From positions 1-49,256 of the forward strand of contig JAISGU010000017.1 of assembly GCA_031262935.1 (NCBI GenBank): DNA of 49,256 nucleotides, read 5' to 3'. Shown piece by piece: positions 30,704-38,173 of the stretch (position 1 is the stretch's first letter; each line of letters begins with the position of its first letter). The notes beneath the pieces are model-generated. The model worked only from the letters and a program-made list of their open reading frames with translations. It did no database searches and was not told the DNA's origin. This DNA comes from Mycoplasmataceae bacterium (GTDB lineage: Bacteria; Bacillota_I; Bacilli_A; Mycoplasmatales; Mycoplasmoidaceae). The position numbers and the translations under genes are program-made.

Positions 30704-32650
30704 TTATTGTAAACCTCCTATCTTTAGAATATCATTCATTCTGTTTTTGATAATATCAGCTTCATTACCAAAAACAGCATAAACAGATTGCGGACTTGGT
30801 TTAATTACACCACGCGCTCCTAAACCAATTAGCATATCTTTATTAACTTTTGATTGGTCAACAATTTGAACACGGAGTTTAGTTATGCAAGCATCAACAT
30901 TTTTAATGTTATCCTTACCACCATAAGCAATTATTGCCTGTTCTGCAATTAGTGTATATTTATCTTTAGGTACATCTGAGTCCCTTGGTTGAACATCCTC
31001 ATGTTCTGCGGATTGCTGTGCTTTATAATCTACTTTAGTGAACATTTTAATTTTGATAGATCGATCTCTACCAGGGGTTTTAATATCAAAATGTAAAATA
31101 AGTGTCTTAAATAAGAAGAAATAAAGCGGTATTAAACACATCCCGATTGCTATTGTTCAATAACAATTTGCGCCATGTTTAGTAACATCTGGTAAAACAC
31201 CATAAACAATGAAATCTAATAGTCCACCACTAAACGTCATACCCATATGTGCACCTAATATATTCATTAATCAAAACGAAATTCCTGCAAGTGGCGCATG
31301 AATTCCTCAGAATAATCATGGTGCTAGAAATAAAAAAGTGAATTCTAACGGTTCAGTAATCCCAGTTAATAACGAAGTTAAAGCACTTGCACCAATGATG
31401 GAGAAAGCTTGTTTTCTACCATCACCTAACTTTGGAACGCAGAAAATCATAGCCATTGCGGCAGCAGGTAAACCAAACATCATAAATGGATATTTACCTT
31501 GCATATATTGTCCAGGGTTACCAGAGATTAAACCAGGATAATTTATGTCATCACTTGGTAAATTTGGTAGTCCATTAAACAAATGATGATAATTCGATAA
31601 AGTAATTGTGTGTGTGCCAACAGTTTTGCCGCATAAACTATTATTAACAAACATTCATAACGATTGATCGCCATTAATACTTAATGAAGTAGAATTTTTT
31701 CATATAGAGGAGTCAATGCCTATACTTCCTCATGTTGCACCTGTTGCAACACCGTCTCAATAAATAGGAGTATTAAAACCAACGTTTATACATCCTCCAG
31801 CTGGTGTATATCATAGAGGGGCATAAAAAGCGTGATGTAATCCAAACGGCACTAGTGATCGCTCAACAAAACCAAATACAAATGAATTAAATCCATATGG
31901 TGCATAGCCTATGTATTTACCAAAATAAAATAATCCCAATCCTATTAATGGTCAAATCATTGAAAATAGTATCCCTAAAATTAAACAGCAAATAAAGGTA
32001 ATGATTGGAATAAATCTAACACCACTAAAAAATCCAATTACGGTAGGTAGTTGAATATTTTTAAAACGGTTATATAAAAATGCAACTAGTGCACCGACAA
32101 AAATACCACCAAAAGCACTAGTGTTTAATGAGGTAATACCTATATTTGATGTAAAAATAGCACTAAACATCGTGCTTGACCATTGTTTATCAGCAATAGT
32201 GTATGTTGCATCGTATGAATATCATAAAAAATGATATTTACCAGTAATATCATGAGAAGGGGGCGTTGATGGGACTGTTGGATTAACAATAAATGCCATT
32301 TGGATTGCGTTAAACACTATTCATCCAACCAAAGCAGATAGTCCTGCAGTTCCACTATCGTGAGTAAAAGCAATAGCTATAGCTATTGCAAATAATACTG
32401 GTAAACAACTAAAAAGCATATTACCTGGAACTTGGAAAATCTGACCAAAAATTTTTAATCCGCCGTTATGTTCGCCAGCTAAGTTAACGATTGTTGAACC
32501 AAGACCTAAAAATAATCCAGCTATTGGTAGCATGGCAATTGGTAGCATTAAACCTCGCGATAACTTTGCAATTAACTCTTTGCCAGTACCAGATTTTTCT
32601 TTTTTAGTCTTAACTTCACCAAACTGTTGATGTCTCTTCTTAAAAAACAT
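30704..32650 (-). CDS. ptsG: PTS glucose-type permease EIICB
   Basis: 648 residues. The EIIC membrane domain comes first (LSRGLMLPIAMLPIAGLFLGLGS; GITEPLEFTFLF near residue 430), then a linker and EIIB with the phosphorylated Cys588 in NVDACITKLRVQ. There is no EIIA domain, so a separate EIIA must supply phosphate. A polar insertion of about 100 residues with many Asn/Ser/Gly (around 310-400) is long for the family. Imports glucose as glucose-6-phosphate, which pgi, gap and pgk then process. Nine or more UGA Trp. Downstream of pgk and a small membrane protein gene. Confidence 0.93.
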
Positions 32651-36131: not shown

Positions 36132-36986
36132 TTATTTGTTGACTAATTTCATTTCTTCTTCTAATCATTTTTTATCATCAATAGTCATTTTTGGTGAAGT
36201 TCCTGTTTTAATGTAATTATTGTATCATTCGGTTGCATAATCAATATATTCTTTAAACTTGTTTAAATCAACATAAAAATCCACCAACCGAATGTCGTGT
36301 GTATTAGTGTCAAATAATTCAGGTTTAACATAATCTTCACCAGTTAAAAACCCGACAGCAAAAACGCCATGATTAATATTTCTTAAATATAAATAAAGTC
36401 CTAATTGCATTTTATATTCGCCAGAAATATTAATCATCCCATCTTTAAATCAACTATCTTTTTTACCATTCTTTTCTTTAACAAGTGGGATCCCATTAAT
36501 GTCTTTTTGCATTTTTAGACAATTGTTAAAGTCTTTTTTATAAACAAAACTATCAATTGAACTTGTTTTGATTTCTAACATTGGTTTGTCATTACTATAA
36601 TCAACAACCATTACATCATTTAATGGTTCTCCATCTGGAATCCCACCAAAGATTTTGTTTTCTTTAAACACATCTCAATTAATTTCTCTAGGGTTATAAA
36701 CTTTGTATTGAATGTTTAATTGTTTTGTAACATAGTCTCTAATCTTTGGTTCAATGGTATTACCAACAATTGCTAGTGTTGGATCCATAGTATCAGTAAA
36801 TAAATTAGTCATCATCATTCAAGTTTTGAATGGGGAATTGTATTTACTTAAACCTACAATACTAGCAAATCTTGTACCAGTAATTTTTTTAAAGTAATTA
36901 AAAGCTTTGTTAAGATAATCTTTATTTAATCTTACAACATCACCATCAATTGAAAAGTTATTAAAATTTTTTAAATTTAATGGCAT
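36132..36986 (-). CDS. YqaJ/RecB-like putative nuclease (MAGa7180 type)
   Basis: 284 residues. PD-(D/E)XK nuclease features: TGTRFASIVG near residue 37, GGIPDGE, then LEIKTSS (the E-x-K pair) and KMQLGLYLYLR, corresponding to the Q-x3-Y motif of RecB/YqaJ nucleases. Mollicutes carry a conserved putative nuclease of this type; a role in DNA repair or nucleotide scavenging is possible, and no phage genes surround it. Minus-strand TATAAT at 36993-36998 puts the transcript start exactly on the A of ATG 36984-36986. Three or more UGA Trp (FKTWMMM, DSWFKD, TEWYNN). Confidence 0.78.
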
Positions 36987-36998
36987 AAAATCATTATA
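36986..36998. promoter_or_regulatory. Interlocked divergent leaderless promoters
   Basis: Plus strand: TAAAAT (36986-36991), six bases, ATG (36998). Minus strand: TATAAT (36998-36993), six bases, ATG (36986). Each -10 box contains the first base of the opposite start codon, and only 11 bp lie between the two ATGs. Confidence 0.6.
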
Positions 36999-38173
36999 TG
37001 TTAGCTATAGCTATCCTAGATTTAATTACTATTTTAACCATAGGTTTAATTGTTGGTATTGCCCCTTATATAAAGAAGGTTACTAATAATTATTTTTTTT
37101 GAATCATATTAGGAGCAGGATTATTAACATACATATTGTGTTGTAGATTTATTAATCAATGACAATGTTTTTGAAGTGATGTCGTACCAACAATTAAAGA
37201 TAAGACTTTTGACCCATCAAGAATTGGGGATTCATTAGACGCTAGTCGTGGTTTATTATTAGATATTTGTCCTTTTACTTGTGTAGTCATTATGTTTGCT
37301 ATTATTGTTGATCCCACAAGAAAAATTGCCAAAGCAATTGCCCCGTTTGGAATCTTTAATTGTTTAATCACAATTCTTGGTGGAATAGGTCAAGATGACC
37401 CCCAACTAACAGCGTCATACATATTTTTAGGTAATAGTGAAAACCCAATGTATTTTATGATGCACTATCTAATGCTGTTGGTTGGAACATTAGTATTAGT
37501 TAGTGCACCAAGAGTTTCATTAAAAGATTGAATTTTTTCAAATCTTTATGCTGGGGTCTACTATTTATATGTAGCAATTTGTATGACTTCATTGCATTTA
37601 CAATATTATGTAAGCGGTTTGAATATAGGGGATTGATCGCCTGAAGGCGAATACTATGGTGTTGCTCAGTTTTTAAATATGTCACCACAAGCATCCGCTG
37701 GTATTGGTTTTACTTTTTGTTATTTAATTATCACTTTAATAATTTATGGACAAAACCGTCTGCAATGATTCAAAAGATACCGATGATATGATGTATGAAA
37801 TAAAAAACAATGATATATCGGGTGATATAGTTTTGATAGTAAAAACCATCATTCCTTATATAAAACATCATTGAACTTAAATAATTGAAAACAAAATAAG
37901 AAACTTTACTTAATGTTTTTCTTTGTTGTCTTGATAATGGTAGGATTAATTTTTACAACTGTTGGACTCGGGTTTTTATGTAATCATGGATCTTTATCAA
38001 CATCATTACCGTTATTCATTATTGGAATTGTCTTACTAATGACATCAACCACATGAACCATTATTCTTATAAATATTTGTAAAAAGGAGAAACTCATTGA
38101 TTTAAATAAAAAATCTATTTACAATTTGTGAAAGCTTTCTCAAATGATTCACCAATGACGTAATCATCATTAA
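36998..38173 (+). CDS. Polytopic membrane protein, DUF5378-like
   Basis: 391 residues with about eight to nine hydrophobic segments, rich in UGA-coded Trp (at least ten), which is why it is missed under the standard code. Conserved-looking stretches: PYIKKVTNNYFFW, LDICPFTCVVI, FGIFNCLITILGGI, YFMMHYLMLLVG and SAPRVSLKDW, matching my memory of the mycoplasma DUF5378 family; no function is known. A His/Trp/Arg-rich end (MIHQWRNHH) runs 59 nt into the 3' end of the convergent ytpR. Leaderless start predicted. Confidence 0.75.

Follow-up and report, generated by a model that had tools for sequence, protein, structure and literature searches.

Bacterial bidirectional promoters, as described by Warman, Grainger, Wade and colleagues, are defined by divergent transcription start sites (TSSs) lying 7-25 bp apart (PMC10268837), with reciprocal overlap of the -10 elements and start sites and room for one polymerase orientation at a time (PMC10268837, PMC12825309). 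Promoters of the 18 bp class make use of -18T/+1A (PMC10268837). In tests of bidirectional promoters in E. coli, the two directions were too weakly active at the basal level to compete, strongly activating one side led to repression of the other, and interference reduced cell-to-cell variation (PMC12825309). Among the mollicutes, Mesoplasma florum has back-to-back overlapping promoters that serve divergent genes through opposed TAWAAT -10 elements and lack a -35 box (PMC7745072); in the portion of that report considered here, the starts were mapped by 5'-RACE, and neither leaderlessness of both mRNAs nor a 12 bp spacing is stated. Leaderless genes of mycoplasmas, which carry a TANNNT motif ~12 bp before the start codon, are known gene by gene (PMC3160421, PMC10568206), and leaderless-like transcripts, which make up 16% of the transcripts of M. 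pneumoniae, are translated just as well as those with leaders (PMC10568206).

The locus described here lies in a 49,256-nucleotide stretch of DNA (the window) from a Mycoplasmataceae bacterium, the assembly of which comprises 742 kb in 46 contigs. Read directly from the window, the 17 plus-strand bases 36984-37000 are CATAAAATCATTATATG, and they begin and end with the start codons of two divergent genes, a minus-strand ATG at 36986-36984 and a plus-strand ATG at 36998-37000, separated by 11 bp. On the plus side, TAAAAT is followed by CATTAT and then by the ATG, while on the minus side TATAAT is followed by GATTTT and then by the ATG, such that each hexamer stands 6 nt from its own start codon. 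The two boxes abut but share no base, and each opens with a T that pairs with the A of the opposite gene's ATG. With starts spaced 12 bp apart, position -12 in one direction coincides with +1 in the other, and position -11 with the opposite -1. An earlier note on this DNA had reported the coordinates, the 11 bp gap, both boxes and the embedding of the opposite gene's first coding base in each box, all of which proved exact to the base. Just upstream of the plus gene, a start-stop mini-ORF (ATG GCA TAA, 36980-36988, plus strand) overlaps the start of the minus gene in antisense. The features of the locus are collected in the table.

Table. Genes, predicted promoter elements and predicted melted region at the divergent locus (positions in the window)
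Feature	Positions	Strand	Basis
MPN551-family DNA-binding / YqaJ-like putative nuclease gene, 284 aa, TGA=Trp	36132..36986	-	NF045868, PF09588
DUF5378 family membrane protein gene, 391 aa, TGA=Trp	36998..38173	+	PF17349
Predicted -10 box TATAAT, nuclease gene	36993..36998	-	Sequence; exact TATAAT 6-10 nt before ATG in 9/13 genus divergent pairs
Predicted -10 box TAAAAT, DUF5378 gene	36986..36991	+	Sequence; equal-scoring rival at 36962-36967
Rival -10 box TAAAAT, inside nuclease coding region	36962..36967	+	Score equals proximal box
Combined extent of both predicted transcription bubbles (-11 to +2 each way)	36985..36999	.	Inferred from predicted +1s 36986 (-) and 36998 (+)

The host is a mollicute that reads TGA as tryptophan, many ORFs in the window being whole only under code 4, and both ORFs flanking the 11 bp gap are genes under this code. 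The minus-strand product passed the curated cut-off of the MPN551 family (NF045868; E 2e-107, 358.5 bits against a cut-off of 250) and also matched the YqaJ domain (PF09588; E 1.2e-6), while the plus-strand product passed that of DUF5378 (PF17349; E 3.6e-49, 168.1 bits against a cut-off of 25.7). Comparison with homologues supported both start codons: the nuclease N-terminus MP is found at the same point in nearly all relatives compared, and the start points of DUF5378 homologues differ from that of the plus gene by at most a few residues. For neither gene is there an in-frame ATG further upstream before a stop codon is reached. Codons 2-6 of the DUF5378 gene also hold a 12-bp perfect palindrome, TAGCTATAGCTA, at 37002-37013, of which the only other copy in the 742 kb assembly lies at 32374-32385, inside a PTS-like gene (30704-32650). 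Shuffling the window 100 times gave at least two matches (one mismatch allowed) in one case, and the repetition is possibly due to chance.

How genes begin elsewhere in this genome was assessed in a 215 kb sample made up of stretches that include the window, with 89 genes classed as likely first in their transcription unit and 77 as within operons. A strong -10 element, meaning TATAAT with at most one mismatch placed 5-9 nt before the ATG, was present in 31 of the 89 first-in-unit genes and in 9 of 77 within-operon genes; at a control distance the first-in-unit genes had it in 4 of 89 cases. Its position in first-in-unit genes peaked 6-8 nt before the ATG. Shine-Dalgarno-like sites were found at 31 of the 77 within-operon genes and at 17 of the 89 first-in-unit genes. 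The genome thus appears to use two start modes according to operon position: genes that come first carry a -10 box 6-8 nt from the ATG, and those that follow tend toward Shine-Dalgarno-like sites. Given how often a -10 element stands this close to the ATG in the genome, it is plausible that both genes of the divergent locus have leaderless or nearly leaderless promoters. In each of them a TANNNT motif ends 6 nt before the start, within the 6-7 nt typical of TA-led leaderless genes, and matches the signal and position of leaderless mycoplasma genes (PMC3160421, PMC10568206), here in a divergent pair that shares 11 bp. No Shine-Dalgarno sequence precedes either of the two starts, nor would one fit, and RNA structure near the starts was unremarkable (z -0.4 and -0.8).

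Taken together, the sequence of the locus probably encodes a very compact, double-leaderless bidirectional promoter, a reading in which we infer both the start sites and the use of the boxes by RNA polymerase. It would be a sigma-70-type bidirectional promoter squeezed to the practical minimum between divergent genes, and the mRNAs of both would have no leader or almost none. RNA polymerase would bind in either orientation, at TATAAT for the minus gene or at TAAAAT for the plus gene, and would open almost the same 11-13 bp each time (predicted bubbles 36987-36999 and 36985-36997). Transcription would then begin on the A of the respective AUG, the two starts lying on opposite strands at a distance of 12 bp. 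Such spacing should create no strand conflict, as the A that initiates in one direction would supply the other direction with its -12 T, a parallel to -18T/+1A in the 18 bp class (PMC10268837). Any one round of initiation would block the other direction for its own duration only, and both genes would be expected to be expressed constitutively in proportion to the strength of their promoters, with mild interference if one direction were very active.

The predicted promoter resembles bacterial bidirectional promoters (PMC10268837, PMC12825309) in its opposed -10 boxes, in starts that fall within the 7-25 bp definition, with a separation of 12 bp judged from sequence, and in the reciprocal overlap of -10 elements and start sites that admits one polymerase orientation at a time. 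It differs from them in having a 12 bp rather than the modal 18 bp spacing, abutting -10 elements and -12T/+1A as the shared pair, in that both mRNAs are predicted to be leaderless, and in that the starts are predicted rather than mapped. It is therefore not of the commonest form, in which starts 18 bp apart bring -7 and -11 into reciprocal coincidence, and lies within the broader definition. The M. florum promoters (PMC7745072) share with it a mollicute host, divergent genes, opposed TAWAAT -10 elements and the lack of a -35 box.

The leaderless status of the plus gene appears less secure than that of the minus gene because an equal-scoring TAAAAT lies 24 bp further upstream (table). The sole purine suitably distant from the minus-strand -10 box is the A of the ATG, while on the plus strand A 36996, 2 nt before the ATG, is a second candidate for +1. 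A reading that restricts a leaderless, local promoter to the nuclease gene, and has DUF5378 transcribed from the upstream box with a leader of ~24 nt and promoters that overlap only partly, draws on this equal score, on a leader mode near 15 nt in M. gallisepticum (PMC4245973) and on several relatives in which the DUF5378 -10 element lies 11-17 nt from the ATG. However, the proximal box sits at the spacer favoured in this genome, the 24-nt leader would have no Shine-Dalgarno sequence, and it would contain the mini-ORF described above, all of which make this arrangement unlikely. The earlier proposal that +1 falls on the A of each ATG thus holds as far as the abutting boxes and the genome-wide -10 peak point to divergent genes that are probably leaderless, and is weakened on the plus side by A 36996 and the rival box.

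The nuclease and DUF5378 genes are divergent neighbours in 13 of the 36 genomes of the genus, the present one included, with ATG-ATG gaps of 11, 11, 27, 33, 41, 42, 42, 42, 45, 45, 55, 55 and 110 bp. Across these 13 species the predicted TSS separation ranged from 10 to 96 bp, falling within the 7-25 bp definition in four pairs and leaving well-separated promoters in the other nine. The gene neighbourhood is therefore kept, but judging from these predicted starts the promoter overlap is not. Only one other species (G011) has an 11 bp gap, and shared descent of this gap did not emerge from the nuclease protein tree, several forks of which lack resolution: G011 did not group with the present species, which adjoins a clade whose pair-keeping members have gaps of 42-45 bp.

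These comparisons bear on the suggestion, made in the earlier note, that the locus is an intrinsic either/or switch, in which mutual exclusion at the shared bubble would anticorrelate the two genes from cell to cell. That only one promoter can be open at a time follows from the geometry, given that bases 36987-36997 belong to both predicted open complexes, so that simultaneous initiation would be impossible. However, such exclusion would last for a single initiation event and leave no memory; because nothing stores the choice, the outcome would be competition and not a switch. Five bidirectional promoters tested in E. coli lacked competition at basal activity, and competition where it occurs lowers noise (PMC12825309). 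No regulator or operator is evident at the locus, and an arrangement serving as a switch might be conserved with the gene pair, but the overlap is absent in 9 of the 13 pairs and the nearest species that keep the pair have the 42-45 bp gaps. We therefore rejected the switch, which we consider very improbable, on the grounds of its lack of conservation and the bidirectional-promoter literature; the claim is unsupported, and the locus looks like ordinary genome thrift rather than a built-in on/off switch.

Matches to the -10 element as good as those observed occur at 0.2% of positions per strand, and two of them at fixed positions between two real starts are thus far beyond what composition would produce. 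The bare palindromic pattern CATANNNTNANNNTATG is not enriched in this genome, with 5 occurrences compared to ~4.7 expected under a first-order Markov model, and only the copy at this locus sits between two genes (long ORFs). That one or both boxes are accidental AT-rich matches without function, as this composition-level count of the symmetric pattern might suggest, is nevertheless hardly credible in light of the 0.2% odds per strand at two fixed positions, the clear genomic -10 peak at the same spacer and a gap of only 11 bp, so that any alternative promoter would have to fall in coding region.

The strict form of the 17-bp pattern is present in only 4 of the 36 genomes of the genus. Of the 83 distinct sites of the 17-bp pattern examined in the genus, 5 are flanked on both sides by ORFs of at least 60 aa. 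Besides the present locus, these include a site in G003 (C11:7334-7350) between divergent genes for a peptidase M3 (PepF-like) and a YbaB/EbfC protein (ybaB/ebfC), with perfect TATAAT in both directions, and two sites with a recognised family on one side (a methyltransferase and a glycosyltransferase); the fifth depends on an ORF of 61 aa, probably a spurious one. Because the pattern also occurs between an unrelated pair of genes in a relative, the arrangement is, on this sequence evidence, not bound to the nuclease and DUF5378 genes but an occasional product of compact leaderless genomes. For a double ATG pattern of the 18-bp type, 16 sites were found in the genus, of which 15 were examined and one has long ORFs on both sides, so that neither geometry is clearly preferred. 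It is conceivable, though doubtful, that the 17-bp cassette CATAWAATNATTWTATG represents a recurring, self-contained double-leaderless bidirectional promoter in the genus that sets the relative output of two divergent genes via a shared bubble and reciprocal -12T/+1A pairing.

Bidirectional promoters and leaderless mycoplasma genes are already known, and the locus would join a known kind. It is of interest mainly for its compactness and, taken alone, gives no indication of a novel regulatory principle. With 11 bp between the genes and no predicted 5' UTR on either side, it would be near the lower limit of DNA able to start two genes; the earlier phrase "smallest possible space" is, for a geometry of this sort, roughly right. 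If confirmed, the locus would provide a clean, naturally occurring construct in which to test how polymerases compete at coinciding bubbles, and it would indicate that leaderless translation lets reduced genomes shrink their divergent intergenic regions.
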